A stretch of DNA of 64,000 nucleotides from Diphasiastrum complanatum (taxonomy: Eukaryota > Streptophyta > Lycopodiopsida > Lycopodiales > Lycopodiaceae), in assembly GCA_029204225.1 (NCBI GenBank), contig CM055107.1:20465997-20529996 (forward strand), in the 5' to 3' direction. The notes beneath the pieces were generated by a model. That model saw only the letters and a list, made by a program, of their open reading frames with translations. It made no database searches and was not told where the DNA came from. Each line of letters opens with the position of its first letter. Position 1 is the first letter of the stretch. Made by a program: the position numbers and the translations under genes. Below, in pieces: positions 30,901-45,023 of the stretch.

Positions 30901-30986
30901 CCATATAAAAAACTTTTTGTGGATGAGGTATATTGTATGAAGTATAGAGTCTAGAGTCCTTTTTTCTCTTTCCCTCTCTCCCATGG

Positions 30987-30989
<3 letters not shown>

Positions 30990-31054
<65 letters not shown>
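30990..31054. repeat. (CT)n microsatellite
   Basis: Uninterrupted CT run of about 32 units. Confidence 0.97.
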
Positions 31055-31060
<6 letters not shown>

Positions 31061-31834
31061 CAGGCTGGTGAACTTGATGGTGAATCATCGTCGATTTTTC
31101 GTGAAGTTTAGAGAGCTGCTTGGTGATGGAGAGCATATCTTTTGCAGCACAACTATTTGGTTATTAGAGCTGTATATTCGTTATTCAGTGAAGAGAGCAT
31201 CATTGGCGCATATCCACGGAGATTTTGTTTGCTCTTAAATGTAGATTTGCTACTTAGTGATTTATAATACGTTTATAAGAATGACAACACTATTAGTGTG
31301 TCTACCTTTGAGGCAATGCTAGATAGCCTAGTGTATAGCCAGACAATGGTATTAGATTTAAGCAATGACATTTCTACGATGTTTTGAAATTGGTTGAAAA
31401 TATATATTTGGACTATTTAAAATGTCTCTTAACCAAAAATGTTATGTATTATAGGAATTCCTTAGTACAAAAGGGCCTCTCAAAAGATACTTTTCTTTTT
31501 TTTTTTTCTCTAATTTTTGCTTCCACTTGGACCAATCAAAAGACCTAAAAATGAAATCTATGTAATGTAGCTCATCGGGACTAGCAAATTGGTTTGTAAT
31601 TTTTGAATTTTTTAAATTGCCGCCAGATAGCTCTTACGCATATGATTGGTTGGCTTGTGCTGTCCGTAGAGTACAATGCTGCCCCGAATCAACTTTTTCA
31701 AGTTAAATTGCTAACCCGGAATGGTTACAAACTAGATCACAGTTACAAACTAGTTTATAATAGTAACAACATTGGTTGGATATTGTGATCACAGTAATTT
31801 TGCATAGTTACAGTTAGCGACCAAGTTTGAATTA
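31055..31834. other. No gene recognised
   Basis: AT-rich, stops in all frames. It may hold the upstream region of the decayed gene at 31929. Confidence 0.4.

Positions 31835-31927
<93 letters not shown>
31835..31927. repeat. (TG)n(AG)n microsatellite
   Basis: About 12 TG units followed by about 35 AG units, ending just before ATG 31927-31929. Confidence 0.97.
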
Positions 31928-31932
<5 letters not shown>

Positions 31933-33330
31933 TCAAGGAGACCGAGATCCACAATAGATTTTGTCATTCTTCACAATGAGAAAGACGAAGCAGGAAATTG
32001 GATAACAAAATAATACGTAAAAAACACATGGGTATCAATGCATCCATCATCAAAAGTAGCGTTTAGAAAGAGAAAACGATCCAAGTTATGTTTCAGGTCC
32101 TACTGGAAAGCTAGGATTCTTGACTTTAGAGCATCGCCATGTGGACAATCCATTTCAGAGGTGTTAGTTCAACATGTTTATATGTATTCGGAGTTGAGTA
32201 TTCAATCCGTCAATCCAAATGATCATAAAAAATGCAATTGTAAGTATCTGAATCACTGCCGTTTTATTTTTATGCAACTAAATTCAAATCTATTCTTTTA
32301 TGCAGTTACTTTTATTTAGCATACTGAATTTGGATATCTATTTAGAAACTCATATCTTTATCATGCAAATTTATATCCATCAAATATAAAGGAATGGGAG
32401 CCCACACAATCACTTGCAGGTATATTGGGTGCCATACATTCAGATATAGAAAAATTGCAGTACAAAGGCCGATCTTCAAAAGAACTTGCCAACAATGGAA
32501 TCTATTTTCATGAATCACTTTACATTCCAGATACGCATGGAAGATTTGGAAACCTTGAGGCCCTTCCACTTCCAAGCTTGGATAGTGAAGAATGGATTAC
32601 TCCTGACAATATTGTTTCATAATCATTTCGATGCAAGCTCTTTAGTGATGTGAAGAATTCTATGAAAATAAGTACGGAGTCCAAAAATGTCCGATTAAGT
32701 TGGTTTATTTCTTTGAATGTATTTGTTGTTTTTTTTTCGATTGCAAATGTGCATAGAACACCGACATTATTTGTTTGTAAGATTTGTCAAATGATACATT
32801 GTCAGAACTTATGGACAAAGGTTAGGACCATAAATCAAACGGAGAAATAGATTGCCGAATTAAAAAAAACTCCATTTGCTTTCGATATCAAATTGAAAGA
32901 CAAACATTGAGCCTTAATTTTAACTATCAAAGATGGAAAAGGAGTGGTACAATATGGATACCATTAGATCAAGACATGGAACAAGATGGACATAGTAATA
33001 GAAAGCAAATTGACATTACATACAATGACAAACTTATTATTACTGTTGAAGTTGAAGAAGACTGAAGCCTTCACTATATCCAAACAGAGCTTGTCTTATT
33101 ATAATACGAGCTTCCTGAATACTTTAGGTTCATTGTTCATGAGAAACTGGTAAGTTTTTTAATATTTCATTTTATTTTATGCAGTAATTTGTCAGCAATA
33201 CAAAGTTATGTTTTATACAGTATTCAATAAAACATTTTTTTCTTTTGCAGATACGGAAAAGACAAGAACAATCTACAAAATGCAAAGATCTAGGTACGTT
33301 GATCAAGGTGATAGAAGAGCTATGATATGC
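31927..33330 (+). pseudogene. Decayed gene of unknown function, convergent with the CENH3-Ulp1 gene
   Basis: From an ATG just after the microsatellite one frame reads MASRRPRSTIDFVILHNEKD, one TAA, then VSMHPSSKVAFRKRKRSKLC and YWKARILDFRASPCGQSISE, up to a consensus donor (GTAAGT, about 32238). A second block, 32310-32621, is open for about 100 residues (HTEFGYLFRNSYLYHANLYP ... GIYFHESLYIPDTHGRFGN ... EEWITPDNIVS). The same frame continues with isolated stops (FVCKICQMIHCQNLW, KKTPFAFDIKLKDKH), and a shifted frame ends DITYNDKLIITVEVEED at about 33063. The length of coherent frame argues for a once-real gene with a few disablements. YWKARILDFRAS faintly recalls the start of chromatin BAH-type domains, but I would not assign it. 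It ends tail to tail with the gene at 33593-35398. Confidence 0.5.
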
Positions 33331-33592: not shown

Positions 33593-34790
33593 TTATTTTA
33601 ACCTTGTTTCTAAATCAGCCTTATCATTTTTAGGATCACATATTACTGGCTTTGTAAGGATGAGTTTGATTAAATCTTGTCTGAATTTATACACATCATT
33701 AAATGTGTACACACCAAGCGAGAACTGCAAACACACAAAATTGAGTTGAGAAATACAGCCGCATTCATAATGAAAAATACATAAAGTAAAAAACAAGTAG
33801 GATCATGATGCTCACTTGCTCAATATTGACCGTGTCTTGTTAAAAATTATATCACTCAAAAAATATCTTTGCATTATAGAGCGTAAACCAGCCGCAATTA
33901 AGTGCATCTTGTTGTTGGGGAGTCTGTAAATAAAAAACAAATATAAGGTCTATTCAAATAAAATTCTGAATATATTTTCATATATGGTCTATCTAAATAA
34001 AATTCTGAATACATTCATCACTGATGTTGATACCTTGATTGATATTATTCTTGGTTTAGCCATAGACGTGGCTGAAGTTGGCAATACTTGAAGAATCGTA
34101 AGAAGTTGTTTATCAAAACTTCTGTGGCTATTTTCACAAGAATTCATTTTAATGCATACATGTTTCACCACCCCATCTATTATAGTGGCCATGAAAAATA
34201 TATATAAACTCCAATGCAGCCTGCAAAACAAATTTTATTTTTATTAATCAGTTTTTTGACATCTTACCAAAGTAAAGCTAGCAGTTTAGCAAATAAGTCT
34301 CAATAATATACTTACTTGGATGCATAAGGAACCACAAATAGTTTTGCAGTTGGACTGCATTGTATAAAAATCCTCTTCAAAAGTTCCAATGCTTCATCGT
34401 TGTGCATTAGATTTTGTTCCACACAAAGACCAGTAATGATGAAAACTTTTTTTTTTTGAATCTTGACTAATGGCGTATTGCAGTAACACAAGCCCACCAT
34501 CAATTATAACATCTATTACATATTTTTTTTTTTTTCTTAAGAACATTACAATCAAAATCATGAAATCGTAATATATAATCAATCTCTGGAATAGTTAGAG
34601 AAAAGTAACCATTGAGTCCATCAATTTTTTTACTAATAATTTTCTCGTTTTCATTATAGTAATCGGATTCAAAAAATTCTTGAGTAGGATCATAAGGAGT
34701 ACGTACAAGAACATTCAATTTATTTACGGTATACTTAGGCAATTGTGAGACATCATGATCAGAAATTGAAAATACAGTATCGACAACCTT
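33593..34790 (-). pseudogene. Ulp1-type (C48) cysteine protease, C-terminal part of the CENH3-Ulp1 gene
   Basis: Catalytic half of the minus-strand gene. The frame continues from the histone part through one TAA (34793-34791): KYTVNKLNVLVRTPYDP, FSLTIPEIDYILRFHDFD, then, past two A-run frameshifts (about 34535 and 34450), YVIDVIIDGGLVLLQYAISQ and VFIITGLCVEQNLMH. Exon 1 ends at 34316 with donor AA|GTAAGT. A 95-bp intron and acceptor TTTTGCAG join it in frame to give LFVVPYASKLHWSLYIF, the Ulp1 catalytic His block. A second 110-bp intron (34033-33924) joins IISIK to TPQQQDALNCGWFTLYNAK, with the oxyanion Gln and nucleophile Cys. The Asp position seems to be Asn (KMNSCEN). The last exon (33724-33593) reads FSLGVYTFNDVYKFRQDLIK, a fitting C-terminus. 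The donor of the third intron is unclear (TGA at 33854). Ulp1 enzymes cleave SUMO conjugates. Confidence 0.8.
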
Positions 34791-35398
34791 TTATGAAACA
34801 TCTTCTAAAATGAGTTCCTCTGCATCTGTACTTGATCCGCTATCAGATTTAAGAGTTTCATTATTATTAGTATTATGTTTCTTTGCCCGTTTACTACATA
34901 TTCTCTTCCTCGTAAATTCCTCGGGGGCCTGGTATCGCTTTGGTTTTGCTTGTTTGTGAGTCGTTCGTGTGGGAAGGTTTGTTTTATCCATTGGAGGTGG
35001 ACGAGTCGTAGAGGCCTTACCCCTGTGAAGACCAAAACTTCTATCTCTTAATCTAGATAAAAGTTGAAAATCTTTGGGCATAATGGTGACACGCTTTGCA
35101 TGGATGACAAACAGGAAGGAATCCTTCATAGGCTTCTTGAAGGACCATAATAGCTGAAATTGTAAAACGATTGTACCTGCCCAGATTCTCTCCGTTGATT
35201 TCACGTACCAAACGATAGAATGGAGCCTTTGGAATCATAAGCTCCGTTGACCTTTGATACTTTTTTATCTCTCTCATCTAATGGCTTCTTCTCATCGATG
35301 TTCTCCTACCAGTACCAAGGTGGCCTGAGGCTCAAAACTTCACCTTGAACTGGATTGGGACGTTGATCAGTCCTGGTTGTTTGCTTTGCTCTAGCCAT
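34791..35398 (-). pseudogene. Histone H3 fold resembling CENH3, N-terminal part of the CENH3-Ulp1 gene
   Basis: ATG 35398-35396 opens MARAKQTTRT, an H3-type N-terminus (canonical MARTKQTARK). A short tail follows with a frameshift and a TAG. The histone fold then reads REIKKYQRSTELMIPKAPF, YRLVREINGENLGRYNRF and TISAIMVLQEAYEGFL. Between VREI and QEAxE there are 24 residues against 23 in canonical H3, i.e. a longer loop 1, and IPxAPF replaces IRKLPF. Both are features of plant centromeric H3. About 23 nt encoding the end of helix 2 are deleted, then IHAKRVTIMPKDFQLLSRLR resumes in another frame. Instead of ending there as H3 does, the frame runs on into a basic/acidic linker (KRICSKRAKKHN ... 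DSGSSTDAEELILEDVS) and the protease. No functional histone can be made from this copy. Confidence 0.8.
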
Positions 35399-35533
35399 AA
35401 CAAGGATATGACAAAGGCTCAAAAAGATGGTAATGAAGCTAAAAAATATAAAGTGTATGAAATGGATATTGGACTTATGCGCAAATAGTAAATAGGTACC
35501 TTATGGGCGTCTATAGGTGCGCACTAATCATAT

Positions 35534-35875
35534 ATGCGAAAACTAGAAAAAGAAAGTGTCGAGGACTGGCTGGCCAAGTGGAGTAGTTACTTCAATCTGC
35601 ACGGTGTTCATGATGAGAAGAAAATTGAAAGTGTCATGCTGTTCTTACGTGACAAAGCGTCATCGTGGTGGCAAGATTTACCGGTGAAGCCAACTACTTG
35701 GGATGCATTTGCAGAAGTTTTCAAGAAAGCTTTCGTAGTTGCTGATGACGTTCACTACTACCTGAAGTTCGTGAACTGCAGGATGGGTACAAAGAATTTA
35801 GACTCTTATATCCAGGAATTCATGGACCTATGGAATAGAGTTCCATCATTCGATGCGAAGTTGGCACTTTGGTAG
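35534..35875 (+). pseudogene. Gypsy-3 gag capsid fragment
   Basis: Reads LRDKASSWWQDLPVKPTTWD, FKKAFVVADDVHYYLKFVNC and LDSYIQEFMDLWNRVP, the typical gypsy gag capsid core. Stop at 35873, then the frame resumes ([15 protein letters not shown]) in a shifted or interrupted form. Confidence 0.88.
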
Positions 35876-35910
35876 TTTGTCCTAGGTTTGCCAGCCGACT
35901 ATGAGAACGA

Positions 35911-37299
35911 ATGCAGGCGAATGTGCTTCAAAACCTCGAGGATGCGTTTCGGATTACGAAAGCATATGATTCCACAGTGGTGGCATCTAGGAAGCAATTT
36001 GCGCAAATTCCAACCACTTTGAAAACCAAGAAGGGTAAGAAGCGCGGTCCAAACCAAACGAAATATTTTGACCAATTAGATCAAGTAGCATCAGAACCCA
36101 GGAAGCCAAAGAGAAAGAGATTTAAGAAACTTATGTCCCAGGAAAAGGCTAAGAAAGAGAACTTATGTTTCGTCTGTAAGAAGCCTGGACATATGATGAA
36201 ATTTTGTCCAGAAAAGAAGAAAGTGTCTGCTCACATGATTGAGATCCCAGGAGGCAATGGTAAGACTTTGGGAATTAACCTGACTGATTGTGAGTGTGAA
36301 TGTTCTTTTAGTACTACCTCTTTCTTGCCTAATGAACTTTTCCGTTTAATTGGCACAGTTAAAGATCAAGAAGTGAGTATTCTATTGGACAGTGGTTCAA
36401 CTCATAACTTTATTGATTCTCATCTTGTGCAAAAACTCAGCTTGGAAACTGAAGCCAACAATCATAGATATAAAGTTTATCTAGTTTCAGAAGCAGAGTT
36501 AGAGACTTGGAACGTAAAAGTCCCGAAGCTCCCAATTTTGATGCACGGACACACAAAATTAGTTAATTTTAATGTTTTAGACTTAGCCCGTACCGATTTA
36601 ATCTTGGGTTACGAGTGGTTATTTAGTAAATCGCCTTTTCTGTTAATTGATTTTGAGAAGCATGTTCTCACTTTCAAGGAGGGTGATAAGGTAGTTACAT
36701 TATTTGGCAATAATTTTGTACGTCCGTTGGATCAAATTTCTATAGTTAATGAAATGGAGACATTGGATTATTTTGAGTATGAAGTTTTTTCAACTTGTGC
36801 TATTCCAGTTGTGGATGTTCCTGAAATGAACCTAAATGGTTGTGAATTCTCATCAATTCTTAACTCAGTAAATTTAGATCATGAACAAGCAGTGAAAGAA
36901 CAGATCATAAATGAATTTAGGGATGTTTTCCCATCTGAATTACCTCATGGTTTACCACCATCTAGGTCAGCAGACCACATGATTGAATTAATTCCAGGAA
37001 GTCAATCTGTCTCTAGACAACCTTATAGGTTCTCTCAGAAAGAGGAGACAGAGATTTCAAGTCAAATAGAAAACTATCTGAGGATGAGATATATAGAACC
37101 TAGTAAATCACCATGGGGCACTCCTGTTCTTCTTAAATCGAAGAAAGATGGAGGTTTTCGGAGGTGTGTAGATTACAAGGGTCTTAATAAAGTGACTATC
37201 AAAAATAAATATCCATTACCCAAGATGGATGACCTTGTAGATCGCTTGGGTGGAGCTCGGTATTTCACCAAGATAGATCTAAGGACAGGGTACCATTAA
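35911..37299 (+). pseudogene. Gypsy-3 gag end, protease and RT start
   Basis: A 462-residue frame: zinc knuckle [19 protein letters not shown], protease [19 protein letters not shown] with an intact [13 protein letters not shown], connector [18 protein letters not shown], and RT blocks [20 protein letters not shown] and [12 protein letters not shown], where a TAA truncates it. Confidence 0.92.
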
Positions 37300-37861
37300 A
37301 TAAGAATTAAGTCGGAAGATGTCCAAAAGATAGGATTTCGTTCCAAATTTGGTCATTATGAATTCTTAGTGTTGTCATTTGGATTAAGGAATGCTCCAAC
37401 AACATTCCAACAAATGATGAACGATTTATTATTTTCATATTTGGGGAAGTTTGTGGTAGTATTCTTAGACGACATTCTCGTTTACAGTAAATCCTTGGTG
37501 GAACACGTAGAATACTTAACCGTCGGGAGTTACTCTATGCTAAAGAGTCCAAGTGCGAATTCTTTAAGCAAGAGTTGCTTTATCTCGGTCATAAGATCAC
37601 AGTAAATGGGATCAAGATTGATGAGGATATGTGATTGAGTGGCCAATTCCGAGAATTGTGAGGCAAGTAAAGTCATTTTTAGGTTTTACACTTTTCTTCA
37701 AGAGATTTATTAAGGATTATGCTAAGTTAGCAACACCACTATATAATCTGACAAAAGGGTTTGTTAATAAAAAGAAAAAGAGAAATCAACCTAGTTCGTC
37801 TGTTGTTTGGAACGAGGAATTGAATCAATGTTTTGAGAAACTTAAAACAATGATTATTTAG
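37300..37861 (+). pseudogene. Gypsy-3 RT catalytic block and connection
   Basis: Continues after the stop with SFGLRNAPTTFQQMMNDLLF and the catalytic VVFLDDILVYSKS, then, after a frameshift, VKSFLGFTLFFKRFIKDYAK (connection). Several indels. Confidence 0.88.
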
Positions 37862-38436
37862 CTCCCATATTACAAATTGCAAATCCAGATTTACCTTACG
37901 TTGTGAGAATGGACGCAAGTGATGTTGCAGTTGGAGCAGTTCTATTACAACTGGATAGGCCACTAGCGTTTGAGAGCAAAAAATTCACTGGTCCTCAGTT
38001 GCGTTATACTATGCAGGAAAAAGAATTGTTTGTTGTAATCCATGCACTTAAAACCTAGAGACACTACTTGTATGGTAGTAAGTTTGTAGTGCATACGGAT
38101 CACCAGCCTCTTAAGTATTTTTGTAATCAACATGATCTTCAAGGGAGAAAAGATCGATGGACTGAATTGATGCAAGAATTCGATCATGAAATCCATTACA
38201 TAAAAGACAGCTCTAATCAAGTTGCAGATGCTCTTAGTCAGATCGGTGAACAAAATGAGTTGTCATTCACCCAGATTTCTATGGATCTATATCTTTTGCT
38301 GAGAGTAAAATATGAATCAGACTCCCGTTTTGGTCACATTTGGAACATTGTTCAGATCGGAAGAAATGTGGGCAGTATTGAGTCAGAAACACAAGGGACT
38401 CAACCAACTAAGAAAGATAAGAAGATTGTAGAATAG
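37862..38436 (+). pseudogene. Gypsy-3 RNase H
   Basis: VRMDASDVAVGAVLLQLDRP, then FVVHTDHQPLKYFCNQHDLQ and SSNQVADALSQIGEQNELS, the conserved RNase H blocks. A TAG at about 38056 and a stop at 38434 interrupt it. Confidence 0.85.
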
Positions 38437-39480
38437 TTCACCATTCGAGATGGATTACTATTTCGGAATGAGAAAGTTTGTGTACTTGGAAATGATGAGC
38501 TCAAATGTAAGATTTTGTTTAAATGTCATGACATACCCTGTGTAGGACATCCCGGTATACACAGGACTTTGGACTTGGTTAAAAGGAAATTTTATTGGCC
38601 AAAGCTCAAGCCATATGTCGAGTCATATGTTGTTAAATGAAAACCCTCTCAACTAGCAAAGGCTGAACACCATAAGACTAGTGGTTTGTTTCATCCGTTA
38701 GCTATCCCAGATAAGAAATGAGAAAGCATATCTATGAATTTTGTAGTTGGACTTCCAAAGACCCAACGACAAAATGATTTTATTTGGGTTGTAGTGGATC
38801 GGTTAACTAATTTAGCTACATTCATACCAGTCAAGTCAACTATAAAGGCTCTGAATTAGCCCAGATATTTGTTGATAGATTATTTTGGTTGTATGGTCTG
38901 CCAAGTGACATTGTTAGTGATAGAGATTCTAAGATCCTAAATTCACAGGTCACTTTTGGTTAGCGGTATTCCATAAACTTGAAACTTCTTTGAGTTTAAG
39001 TTCTTCTGATCATCCTGAATCAGATGGCCAGACATAAAGGACTAATCAAACTATGGAAGATATTTTGAGGATGTATGTTTCTCACAGGCAATCTCATTGG
39101 GAAGATTATCTCCCACTGGTTGAGTTTGCATATAATAGTAGAAAACATTCTGCTACAGGTTACAGTCCTTTCATGCTTATGTACGGTTTTCAATCTAGAT
39201 CTCAGTAAATATTGAGACGAAGTCTGTTAAGATCCAGAAGGTTGCCGATTTTTGCATGATATGCAAGAGATGTTACAAGTGGCTAAGGATAGTATCCGAA
39301 GTGCTTAGGATAGAGCTAAACACTATACCTATCTTAAGAGATCTCCAAGAGATTTTAAAGTTGATGAATGGGTATATCTTAGGATTCTAATAGATTCTAA
39401 GACATTACATACAAGGAAGCATTATAAGCTGTCTACCCGTTATTGTGGACCTTTTAGGATTGTACGTAAAATTGGTTCTT
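38437..39480 (+). pseudogene. Gypsy-3 integrase, heavily mutated
   Basis: Recognisable in pieces: HPGIHRTLDLVKRKFYWPK, MNFVVGLPKTQRQNDFIWVV, DIVSDRDSK with an indel, SSDHPESDGQ and VEFAYNSRKHSATGYSPFML. At least six stops or frameshifts. Confidence 0.85.
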
Positions 39481-39482
39481 TA

Positions 39483-39782
39483 GTGTATGAACTCAATCTT
39501 CAAGGAAAATCGATTGCACACCCAATGTTTCATGTAAGTTGTTTGAAACTAAGTTTACATGATGTTGATATAGTTGGATCGGATGAGGATTTATCCCGTT
39601 TGGAAGATTTGTTGCTTAGTGTACCTTTGGAACCTGAGAAAGTGCTCAGAACCGGAGATAAACAATTGAGAAATCGGTCTATCTCTGAGTGCTTAATTCA
39701 GTGGAAGGGTGGTACTGAGGATGATGATTCATGGGAGAGAGTTGATAGCATAAAAAAGAATTTTTTGAAGTTTAATTTCTAA
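39483..39782 (+). pseudogene. Gypsy-3 integrase tail and chromodomain
   Basis: Reads AHPMFHVSCLKLSLHDVD and ISECLIQWKGGTEDDDSWE, the chromodomain, ending at TAA 39780-39782. The equivalent gypsy-1 motif is YLVRWKGSSEDDDTWE. Confidence 0.88.
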
Positions 39783-39810
39783 GGATAGAAACAGTTTAAG
39801 GAGGGAAGAA

Positions 39811-40318
39811 TGTTATGTCCATGACCAGTACATAGGATACAATATACTCCTAGTCTTGGATACACGGTACTCTAGTGAAATAAGCTGTTAGTTATGCCAC
39901 GTCATACTGGACGTGACTCGAAAGTAATTAACATCTTTGTAAGGCCCAGAACACAATAAATGGAGTTTAGACAAGGTATGAGACAGTGTATGCATGTGTA
40001 GAGTTAGCAATAGCAATTCTATGAATAGTTGGTCCATTCTTAGGACTCTATTCTAGGTGAATCTATGTATAGGGAACTTAGGGCTATGCATGGCTAGGAT
40101 GCTTTTGGCTCTATATATTGGGTCCAAACTTGCCCTACTCCTCATTATGGTTGTGGATTCATTGCCAGGCTCTCACTCTACATTCATGCTTCTTGTTCCT
40201 TGGCTTGGGGTTGAAGCTTCTAGAGTTTGATTGGATGCTTCTACTTGGTTGGGTGATTTTTCCATAGTGTGTTATCCATTGTAGTTGTGACTTGTAAGCG
40301 AGATCTAAGGAGCTTCCC
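39811..40318 (+). repeat. Gypsy-3 3' LTR
   Basis: Begins TGTTATGTCCATGACC directly after the polypurine tract. It includes a TATA-like CTCTATATATTGGG (about 40110). The 3' border is not defined; copia sequence begins by about 40320. Confidence 0.7.
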
Positions 40319-40720
40319 TTATACTTTTGATACCATGTTCCTTGCAAAAGTTTTCAAAATCATATTCGCTCCCTCTATCTGATCTAAGCACTTTGATTCG
40401 TGCATCCAGCTGATTGTCCACCAAATCCTTGAATTCTTTGAGATGAGCAAAAGCATATGATTTCTTCTTCAAGAAATTTATCCATGTCCTGCTGGAGTAA
40501 TCATCTATAGATGTGATAAAATAGTAAGCTTCCCTTATCGACATGGTTTCCATTGGGCCGCACAAATGACTATGAAGGAGTTCAAGTCATTGCTTGGCTC
40601 TTGTAACTCCATCTTTCTTGAATTTCTCCATCTGATGCTTTCCCATAAAACATCCCTCACAAATGAAATGGTAATCATCCTATAATGCTGGTAATCCATT
40701 CACCATTTTTAACTTAGCCA
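40319..40720 (-). pseudogene. Copia integrase fragment
   Basis: The minus strand reads YHFICEGCFMGKHQMEKF (pre-integrase zinc motif), [35 protein letters not shown] and [20 protein letters not shown], copia integrase with two catalytic Asp residues. It is truncated at both ends, with a stop near 40590. Confidence 0.82.
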
Positions 40721-40734
40721 TCATTCTTAGACTT

Positions 40735-41560
40735 TGTTGGGGGTATTCCCAACATAGAGCGAATAAAAGAAAATGAGTCAATAAATGTGTTGTGAGGGCA
40801 TGGCTTCCTGCGCGTATAAGTCCGTGACCCAAGGAGCACGCAAGGCAATTGTAAATAGAACTAATGGACTTGGGCCCCTTGTAATTAAAATAAAACTTGA
40901 GGTCCAAAGTCAATTTAAACTTAGAAATTTATTATTTTAGAGTTGGGTCCAACTTTGGATTCACATGAATCTTGTGAATTCTGATGTACTTTTTGTGGAC
41001 CCTTGGATTAAGTTGGGTCCAAGATGAATGGTTAGGATCAATGTACATATTAGCCAATAGAATTTTGGGGCAAGGGCCTTTCCCATTTATAAAAAGGCAC
41101 CATTTGTACTCTATTTTTCATGCTTATTGAGGAGGAAACTCTACCAAACTTTGGAGAGAAGCATCCTCATTTGCTATTCACTACTTGCTAATGTTGTTTG
41201 ATTGTGCTTTCTATTTGCTTCTAGTTTACATGTTTTTGGTTGTGATAGTGAATATTTCTCCATTAGCAAGCATAAAGAGCATTTGAGCTAACCCCCACCC
41301 TCACTCCCTTCCTCTCTTTCTCTCTCTCATTTCTACTCTCTCTTCCCTTTCACAAAAATCATGATGGATGTTACTTTAGTGGAGTAGAGTTAGGGATGAG
41401 TAGTATTAGTGGTGTTAGTGTTAGGGAAAAAGTAGAGAACCATCTAAAAGTAGCATCTATTCATAGTTAGGCACCTATCTAGTGTTCTGACCCTTGTTGA
41501 TAGGCGGGAGGGCTACGACGACGTGAGAACATTGACCCTATAGTGGCGCCACCGGGGATA
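40735..41560 (+). mobile_element. LTR-like block followed by a TGGCGCC-type leader start
   Basis: Starts TGTTGGGGGTATTCCCAACA, a 7-bp inverted repeat around a short loop. After about 0.8 kb comes GAGAACA and then TAGTGGCGCCACCGGGGATA (41541-41560). TGGCGCCnnnnCCGGGGA is the start of the internal region in plant Tat/Athila-type gypsy elements. I infer an LTR of about 797 bp (40735-41531) ending before it. No internal coding follows. Pyrimidine-rich DNA lies at 41302-41355. Confidence 0.45.
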
Positions 41561-41639
41561 GGTTTTCACTAACTAGCATAGCTGCATTTTAGTTATTTCT
41601 TGCTTTTTAGAGTAGTTTTAGGTGGATGCTTAAAGAACA

Positions 41640-42200
41640 TGACTGTATATAGACCATCTACAATAATCATCTATGAAAGTGATAAAATAGATTGCATCTC
41701 CTAAGGACGAAGTTGGCATTGGAGCACAAAGATCGCTATGTACAAGATCCAATACATTTTTTGTATTGATGGAATGTGATTTGGGAAACTTTCATCTAGA
41801 GTGCTTTCCATAGATGCATGATTCACAAATAGAAGATTTTCTATCCAATGAAGAAGATAAATGTAATTCATCAACTAAATTATTACAATGCATATAGGAA
41901 AGTGATTTTTATTCACGTGTCCAAATCGACTATGCCACAAGAAGTAGCATTATTGTTTACATTTTCTTGAGAGATACTAGAGAGTACGTAAAAATTTCTA
42001 ACTCTAGTGCATGCAGTCAAAGTAGTTTCTTCATCAAAGATTGTACACTACTCACATGAGAAAGTGGCAGTGTAGCCCTCATCAGTCATCTTAGAAAGTG
42101 ACACCAGGTTCTTTGACAACTAAGGTACATGAAGAACATTGGTTGCATCAATAGAAAGATCATTTTTGAATGCGATCTTGACTGTCTCATAATTAATTAT
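41640..42200 (-). pseudogene. Copia integrase/pre-integrase fragment
   Basis: The minus strand reads APMPTSSLGDAIYFITFIDD at about 41730-41650, preceded by a ruined Cys/His region. It is a second, more decayed copia integrase piece; no long frame remains. Confidence 0.6.
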
Positions 42201-44510
42201 TGGTTATGGCATGCAACATTCAAGGCAACAAACGATAGAAAGTAAGAAAGCTTGTATGTGGACCCAAGATTACTCTCTTGTATTATGGATAATCACTTTG
42301 AGTACATTGCTTTTCCTTATATAGATAATGAGTGGAAGTCAAGTGTCCAACTTGCTTATGGGACTTAATCCCAAGCTTAAAAGTTACAAGTTTTTATTTA
42401 AACTTGACTTGAGTAGAAAAATGTAAGTTAATCTTTGTAACTTGTACAAGAATAGTTCTAGGCCTAAGTTAATCACTAAGTCCTTACAAATAAGCTTATG
42501 ACTTGGACATATACATGCAAGATGCCAATTGGGCTTTGCTTTCAACAAAAATATTCAAGAACAAATGTGATAAGGTACTAGCCTTACAAACACCCTTGGA
42601 TTTTGTAGGACCCGTTCACTTGCTCTTGTATTCCAATCGCCAACAAATTTTTTTTTATCACCCTCAAGCATTTTTAGGTCATCAATCTAGTGAGTCCATT
42701 TCTTCGTCAGTCACATCTGCCCTTTTTGTACTTCATTTTCTAACTTCCTAGATTCTATGATCTAGCTAATATGGTCTTTACCATTCAAGTCACAATATCT
42801 AGGGCTCTTGGTCTTACTTTTTAACTATTACGTAAGGCTTCGACTTTTTTATAATCACCAATAAAAAATCTTCATAATTTTTTTCCTGCTAAAGGCTTCT
42901 CATGATAATATATATAGTCGATAGACATTTGCTTACATAATTTACTAGGATATTTCCTAGAGCAAAAGGAAGCATGTCAATGTATGTGGTTGTGGATATT
43001 TTAACATTATTAAATTATAGAAGCTTTTTTGGATTGTTCGTTTATTCCGTTCCGATTTCATGGTCCAAAGTGGAGATTAGTTTTAGCTAGTTTTACTCTA
43101 TATAATCTAAAGATTTACAGAGCAATGTCATTAATGTTTATCTAAAGTATGAATATGTTTGAAGGCATGTGCCAGTGTGAAAGAAACCAATTCATAAATG
43201 ATAAAGTTTGTTTTTATTAAACCAATTTAAGAAACAAGTTATAAATGATAAAGTAAAGTTTGTTTTTATTAAAGAAACCAATTTATTAAACAAATGATAA
43301 AGTAAAGTTTGCTTTTTGTACCTTTTCATCATCCTATTGTACCAAGCTTTTAAAAAATAAACATACTAGCATTCAAAACAAGCATTGAAGATCTCCATAT
43401 GACATATATATTTTTAACTTATTTAATGGGTCAAAAGGTTCACTTAAATATCGCTTGTGGGCATGAATGATAAGTTAGTTTTCTTTCCCACTTTTTAGTC
43501 ATGTTATTAAGCAAGTGGGATATGAATTGACATTATGCATACAATCAAAACATAGGTGCAATCTAGTGAGTGCTGTATCCATGCAAATGCAACTAAATTG
43601 TTAAGTACAAATGAAAGACGTGGACAAATTTTCTTTGAGACTTGTTGTATGTTTCCACCTTGATGATTGTAATGAAAATCTTAAATTTGTTTCCACATTG
43701 CAAATGCTATAGGATGTTTTCCACGTGGCAAGAAAAAAGTGGTAAGTTTTGCAATTGATTGTTTTCTCTTTGATTTAAGTTGTCACATTCAGATTTTTGA
43801 TGTGGGATAACATTCACCTACCTACTTCTAAATACATGTACACGACATCCTACTCGACAACTTATATAGACCTTTTCTTGTGAATGGATTTTGCACTATT
43901 TTCTTCAACTTGTAGATAAGGACTATAAAAAAGTTTTCAGCCACAACCAGTGTTAATTATGTTTGAATTCTCCCATAAAAAGTTAGAGCTCAAGATTTCT
44001 ATTTTTTTAATAGTTTTTTCATGGTTGTTATGATTTCTTATTTATTATACTTCTTTTCATGGTTGGAATGAACTATGTACTACATGAAACTTTTTTTTCT
44101 TGAATTATAAATTGAAATTGAGCCTTGATCATTTTTAATGTAGTGAGTAGGGGTGATGGAGATGAGAACAATCACAATCTTTATTACTATATTAAAGTGG
44201 TGTGTAAAATTTTTGTTGGATAATATAAAAAACCCAAAAACATCATCCACTATTTAAAGTTATTTTTTTTTTAAAAGTAGTCATTTAAACTGAATTAACC
44301 TTTGAAATGTTTTATGTTTGATGGGAACTGGTCCAAGGAGAATTTTATAAGATATAATAGCCAGTTCTGGAGTATTTTTTATTTCGAATTTCATATTGCT
44401 ATTAAAGAATTTAATTTGTCAAAAATTATTCTCGTACTATTCTAAAGAAATAAGAAGAAATAAGCAAATAATGAAAATAAAAATTAGAATAGACAACAGT
44501 CGAATTCAAA
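42201..44510. other. AT-rich DNA, no gene recognised
   Basis: Stops in all frames. 42290-42430 has a TATATAGATA element and could be an LTR piece. 43186-43320 has an imperfect tandem repeat of about 55 bp (AACCAATTTAxxAAAC...AAATGATAAAGTAAAGTTTG). Confidence 0.45.
43186..43320. repeat. Imperfect ~55-bp tandem repeat, about three copies
   Basis: Three blocks share AAATGATAAAGT(AAAGT)TTG followed by TTTTTATTAAA and AACCAATTTA with small indels. Confidence 0.7.
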
Positions 44511-44519
44511 TGAAACATC

Positions 44520-44745
44520 TCCTTCAAAAATGATGAAAAAGCTTTTTTGCAAGTATTGTAAAGGAACCAACAATAAGATTAAAGACTGAAAAACAATGAA
44601 GATGATCATTTAGTGATTATGACAAAGCATGAAGACATTCAAAATTACCAATTTTGGTATCTTGATTCAGGTGCAATTAAGCACATGACCAATCACAAAG
44701 AATGGTTCCAATAGTACCAATCCTATAATACAAAACGACAAGTAC
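44520..44745 (+). pseudogene. Copia gag knuckle and protease fragment
   Basis: KLFCKYCKGTNNKIKDC resembles a copia zinc knuckle with the His lost. After a stop, FWYLDSGAIKHMTNHKEWF is the protease active site (D-S-G). Only about 70 codons survive. Confidence 0.75.
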
Positions 44746-45023
44746 TTAAAAGGTACATCAAATAATGAACTGTTTTTTTGGAGAATGAAAAATTTACATG
44801 CATTCAATCACTTTCAACTCTCACTCACACGTGTGGGAAGTATTAAAAAATTATTCTAAGTAAAAACAAGCTGCTCTCCTTGAGTAGAGAGAGAAAATCA
44901 TCATGAGCTCTCGGGTAGAAAGAGAAAGCTAGAAATCCAATAACACTCAAAATCCACACAATCTCCAAATCAATTAGATCCAAATGAGGAATACAATGAT
45001 ACTAGTAGATCCACGAGCTACCA

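Follow-up and report, generated by a model that had tools for sequence, protein, structure and literature searches.

Chromatin tools carried by transposons are already known. Histone H3-like (H3L) genes are described in fungal hAT transposons of Pyrenophora (PMC3538342) and Pseudocercospora (PMC6710886), and the H3L copies of P. fijiensis were inactivated by repeat-induced point mutation (PMC6710886). For KIU/Kaonashi, an Ulp1 domain is described in VANC-type genes of Vandal elements, which are Mutator-like elements (MULEs) without terminal inverted repeats (TIRs), and hypomethylation of related elements is reported (PMC13317346). VANC itself, a transposon product with DUF1985/DUF287 that attaches to short DNA motifs, works against silencing by the host (PMC5735166), and TET/JBP is another chromatin accessory gene, found in fungal members of the CMCT clade (PMC12730594). 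Here, a stretch of 64,000 nucleotides from the lycopod Diphasiastrum complanatum (contig CM055107.1, positions 20,465,997 to 20,529,996; referred to as the window) was analysed. It holds a decayed gene in which an H3-like histone fold is joined to an Ulp1-type protease. This gene is probably the third of the four genes of a TIR DNA transposon, with anti-silencing as its inferred role.

The fusion gene and its copies

The gene lies on the minus strand with an ATG at 35398 and a stop at 33595-33593, and its three introns (34315-34221, 34033-33924 and 33815-33725) all have GT..AG borders. A preliminary description of this DNA had given the same coordinates and strand. The gene is composed of the following parts.

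33593..35398, minus strand: decayed H3-Ulp1 fusion gene (family A), from reading frames, splice borders and copy alignment
34316..35398, minus strand: exon 1, with the H3-like tail, histone fold, charged linker and protease N-terminal half
34034..34220, minus strand: exon 2, with the catalytic His (LHWSL) and Asn-Ser (KMNS)
33816..33923, minus strand: exon 3, PQQQDALNCGWF, with the Gln and the catalytic Cys
33593..33724, minus strand: exon 4, the C-terminal part, with a private stop at 33595-33593

The Pfam Histone family matched the window piece 35053-35277 (3.5e-11) and scored 1.6e-5 on piece 34791-35234 (25.6 bits against a cut-off of 26.4). The protease exons of the window, scanned separately, gave no Pfam protease match. 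Copies were searched for in the 1.74-Gb assembly of the same genome. A DNA search with 610 bases yielded 40 scored matches from 297 candidates, one being the window and the other 39 having 80-90% identity. Because there are 40 scored matches in the same genome, the window feature is beyond chance. A protein search (122 matches, 111 scored of 9,209 candidates) revealed a second, diverged group matching over histone, linker and protease. The family B query gave 110 matches with 109 scored copies from 10,282 candidates, and the family C query gave 134 matches, all scored, from 9,700 candidates. The families were compared in a three-row alignment (A2), in which the copy L032 stands for family B and a composite for each of families A and C; the family A composite was put together from exons of L026, the window and L027. 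Families A and C are each 39% identical to B. The fusion gene is present in very many copies and in three diverged families.

The matched stretch is free of stops in 11 of the 109 family B copies, query L032 included (98 carry stops by manual count), and in 31 of the 134 family C copies (103 carry stops). Relatives with both domains in one open frame exist: L032 is such a gene, with four exons, 591 amino acids and no stop. The histone-protease junction is also crossed without a stop in L016 (query residues 1-281), L013 (1-299) and C8:16951294 (1-327). These relatives bear out the proposal that one gene joins an H3-type fold to an Ulp1-type protease. The internal stops of the 134 family C copies are 153 TAG, 19 TAA and 10 TGA, counted with stops of shared ancestry included. 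A stop-free family C copy has 6 CAG, 2 CAA, 1 CGA and 1 TGG codons; stop-prone codons so rich in CAG favour TAG anyway, and deamination in the CHG context may account for the TAG excess.

Twenty other family A copies were taken with their flanks; they have the gene region in common with the window to differing extents. Against these relatives, helix 2 of the window copy has a 23-nt deletion (24 bases against 47 in the commonest relatives), and both of its A-runs differ in length from theirs. The linker TAA at 34793-34791 is absent from all 20 (18 with a sense codon, 2 with a gap). It is private to the window copy, so a stand-alone histone gene did not originally end there; that possibility, raised beforehand, is ruled out. 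The final TAA at 33595-33593 is found in none of the 10 other copies aligning there, and past it the window frame is open again to about 33440. The breaks listed in the preliminary description are thus genuine, and most of them occur in no copy but this one, which is dead, a pseudogene.

The histone part of the family B copy L031 matched Pfam Histone at 3.4e-23, all three A2 members match this family, and much of the histone core is identical across the three rows. The best solved relatives are H3.Y, CENP-A and H3.3. Two marks of centromeric H3 (CENH3) had been noted in the window: the IP-A-PF motif is present in families A, B and C, whereas the loop 1 longer by one residue than in H3 is seen in A and C only, B having the H3 length. 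The tail retains K4 in the rows read, and among 20 family A copies with an ATG it does so in 19. At tail position 9, these 20 copies have Thr, Ile or Ala, family B has Ala (L031 and L032) and family C has Asp (L033). In a 15-row tree, the transposon histones formed one clade (98/95) apart from the CENH3 rows, which the tree did not place relative to H3 and CENH3. The CENH3 branches are long, four reference rows are of provisional sequence (CENP-A partly so), and no CENH3 of the host is among the rows.

The family A composite passes the cut-off of Pfam Peptidase_C48 (PF02902), with 21.7 against 20.7 bits. At E values up to 1, all three A2 members match, the best at 8.5e-12 (the family C composite, by elimination). 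All three rows agree in the His, Gln and Cys of the protease. The active-site Asp, which in canonical Ulp1 is part of Asp-Ser, reads Asn in 3/3 rows, its position being judged by eye. Asn serves in papain-like triads.

A second, more diverged H3-like fold was observed upstream of the family A gene in L027 (2078-2470) and also in L026, L018 and L024. It matched Pfam Histone at 6.1e-9 in L027, is 38-48% identical to the family A query and is likely a remnant of a related element.

The transposon and its transposase

A full-length family C element (L034) ends in inverted repeats, with a perfect 35-bp TIR. In families B and C, the H3-Ulp1 gene lies downstream of the putative transposase gene X and shares its strand; in 11/11 linked pairs it is downstream of and co-linear with X. 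CA..TG termini were read at both ends of L034 and of three of the five further copies tried (C6, C14 and C7); C19 gave the right end only, and C23 the left end only, reading CACTA. In family A, four copies (the window, L009, L022 and L028) reach the right end, and homology stops at the same place in all of them. In the window, homology to other copies begins at 35560, and the following features surround the gene.

31933..33161, plus strand: gene Z match, by tblastn of the L034 Z pieces (31933-32250, 32356-32655, 32653-32781 and 32781-33161)
31447..31477, plus strand: right TIR with a mutated CATTA.AGGAGTTC end, resembling the perfect 35-bp TIR of L034
35561..38058 (or from 35528), plus strand: gag-pol open reading frames of a retroelement, presumably Ty3/gypsy-like, abutting the transposon in the place of its absent left part (Y, X and left TIR)

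No X or Y match was obtained in the window with tblastn. No direct repeat of at least 150 bases was found in window 34500-45000, so the long terminal repeats of the gag-pol element were not found. Extended (CT)n/(GA)n and (GT)n repeats occupy 30941-31111 and 31755-31970, the second just before gene Z. In L012, from 6050, a fragment resembling family C, its 35-bp terminal repeat intact, lies inside the family A copy, as a nested insertion would.

The predicted model of P0006, a homologue of X, has a RAG1/Transib-like fold and agrees with the RAG1 core fold. In a 24-row alignment of X homologues (A1), C521-x2-C524 is nearly invariant and H580-x4-H585 is invariant. These are the C(2)C and H(3-4)H motifs that DDE transposases of the CMCT clade have between the second D and the last E, according to the available text of PMC12730594. 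By copy, X reads PCLYC and VHVCTLH in L033 and PCLYG in L016. The aspartates of KLDE and GDLK, candidates for the first two acidic residues, are nearly invariant in A1. The candidate third acidic residue, E in G[ML]E.SH, was seen in L031 and, within A1, only in P0003, P0006 and P0022 because most rows end earlier.

Apart from the D, D, E residues and the Cys and His motifs, the features used for the CMCT clade were CA..TG termini in most cases and a target-site duplication (TSD) of 2 to 5 bp. No such TSD was found at the four copies whose two ends were read (L034, C6, C14 and C7). The TSD of RAG1/Transib is 5 bp, and none of this length was found at these four copies. When the ends were shifted by up to 3 bases, the longest direct repeats were 2-3 bp, as random flanks give. 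TIRs without a flush TSD are unusual for a DDE transposon. No Pfam transposase match was obtained with four X homologues or ten frames of the full-length L034. A MULE identity was rejected, since no MULE family appeared in these scans or in those of ten L031/L032 frames; a hAT identity likewise had no Pfam support in the same sets, and neither a hAT transposase nor an 8-bp TSD was seen. The predicted 710-aa protein P0049 of Adiantum nelumboides, which matches X over 27% of the query, also has reverse transcriptase and RNase H Pfam domains and may be a chimera or a gene-model artefact.

Proposed role and alternative explanations

The H3 part of the fusion would pair with host H4 and be loaded into chromatin or held by histone chaperones, and the protease would thereby be placed on chromatin. 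A tail with K4 and without K9 could not take K9 methylation and would be refractory to this mark of silenced plant transposons. The protease might remove SUMO, or a modifier akin to it, from proteins that act in silencing. Taken together, these activities would amount to anti-silencing, with a purpose comparable to that of VANC and KIU in Vandal elements. Drawn from established biology, this mechanism is a plausible candidate, somewhat short of even chances. A wider proposal, that a plant transposon superfamily with a RAG1/Transib-like transposase evolved its own nucleosome component, a K4-keeping, K9-less H3 covalently tied to a deSUMOylase, with which the element would mark or clear its own chromatin and escape H3K9me2/CHG silencing, is more doubtful.

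Several observations weigh against the transposon gene with an anti-silencing role. On the side of the element, X was found in only 3/20 family A loci: it has the expected position and orientation in L016, and L025 and L028 have it inverted. The tie of family A to X is therefore weak, with Z and the right TIR as its main supports. Where both ends were read, 0/4 copies showed a flush direct repeat of 2-10 bp, a frameshift affects the H3-Ulp1 copy of L034, and the transposase model is that of P0006, 35% identical to the X query with a mean pLDDT (predicted local distance difference test) of 68.5, rather than of this genome's protein. On the side of the gene, the loss of K9 across copies reflects few independent events, family B reaches 12.9 bits against Peptidase_C48 (below the cut-off of 20.7), and with the catalytic Asp reading as Asn the protease activity is putative. 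The function as a whole is predicted from sequence. Between two family B copies (L031 and L032), the ratio of nonsynonymous to synonymous substitution (dN/dS) is 2.03 for the linker and 0.87 for the exon overall, near neutral; it is 0.58 for the histone and 0.59 for the protease N-terminal half. These ratios hint weakly at past constraint mixed with neutral decay.

The strongest alternative is that the fusion acts in transposition, the histone part putting the transposase complex on nucleosomes or steering insertion and the protease trimming SUMO from transposase or repair proteins. The constant arrangement behind X would suit such a role, in which K9 loss would be incidental. The present data do not discriminate it from anti-silencing, and we regard it as unlikely though well worth keeping in view. 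A slightly lower probability is given to a captured passenger without a role, spread by hitch-hiking as in Pack-type transduplication. The near-neutral exon and linker ratios and the stops in most family B and C copies fit a passenger; on the other hand, the two-domain layout and the catalytic residues are the same in three families this diverged, and the histone and protease ratios are below 0.6.

The preliminary description had favoured a CENH3 gene of the host, enlarged by a deSUMOylase domain and active at centromeres, the window copy being its pseudogene. The IP-A-PF motif and the longer loop 1 of families A and C speak for it. Against it stand the dispersal of the gene in hundreds of copies, many of them within TIR elements (families B and C by themselves account for 243 scored copies), the H3-length loop of family B, and a tree without grouping with CENH3, although CENH3 branches are long there. 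Copy number, TIRs and linkage set this explanation aside in favour of transposon cargo; it is largely refuted and very improbable. That a histone pseudogene lies by chance beside an unrelated protease pseudogene, as the break between the two parts of the window copy could suggest, is refuted by the stop-free junctions of other copies, the whole L032 gene and the lack of a linker stop in 20 other copies, and is hardly credible.

Comparison with known systems

In titles and abstracts, with subscription journals and preprint servers largely outside the coverage, no H3-Ulp1 fusion and no description of this element was found, and a core histone fused to an enzyme in a transposon has no precedent in the literature searched. 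Were the protein to enter nucleosomes, part of the host chromatin would come from a mobile element, and a single gene would allow tests of how transposons defeat H3K9/CHG silencing. An abundant plant element whose transposase has a RAG1/Transib fold and relatives in a fern would also extend the map of the lineage behind V(D)J recombination.

Among proteins, the family A composite found one with an E value of 0.01 or lower (P0001, an H3 that has a long tail but no Ulp1), and the A/B/C alignment found 16 at E 0.001 or better, one of which, P0060 from an ENA contig, has both Pfam domains. This 549-aa protein has Histone (9e-42) followed by Peptidase_C48 (6.5e-23), the same order as here. It differs in its near-canonical H3, its alanine-proline linker and the presence of His, Asp, Gln and Cys (by eye). 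Against A2, hhalign aligned only the histone part and BLASTP, for the protease, only the Cys block, so P0060 is possibly an independent fusion. Viral contigs scanned with P0060 and A1 held no relative, and a viral origin was rejected on these scans.

The element resembles the CMCT clade in the C(2)C and H(3-4)H motifs of X, the CA..TG termini and the predicted RAG1-like fold. It is unlike it in having no Pfam transposase match, no TSD found and four genes with an H3-Ulp1 fusion. The fungal hAT elements are alike in that a TIR DNA transposon amplifies an H3-like gene (784 copies in P. fijiensis); theirs is a plain H3 with a hAT transposase and an 8-bp TSD, and the word 'Protease' is absent from the text of PMC6710886, whereas here a RAG1/Transib-fold transposase, a plant host and an H3 fused to Ulp1 are found. 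KIU shares an Ulp1-type domain in an accessory gene of a plant DNA transposon; its elements are non-TIR MULEs, and 'histone' is absent from the text of PMC13317346. VANC differs in its binding of short DNA motifs and its DUF1985/DUF287, 'Ulp1' being absent from the text of PMC5735166, and may be a functional analogue of the fusion as an anti-silencing protein. VANC (PMC5735166), KIU (PMC13317346), fungal H3L (PMC3538342, PMC6710886) and TET/JBP are precedents for this class of function.
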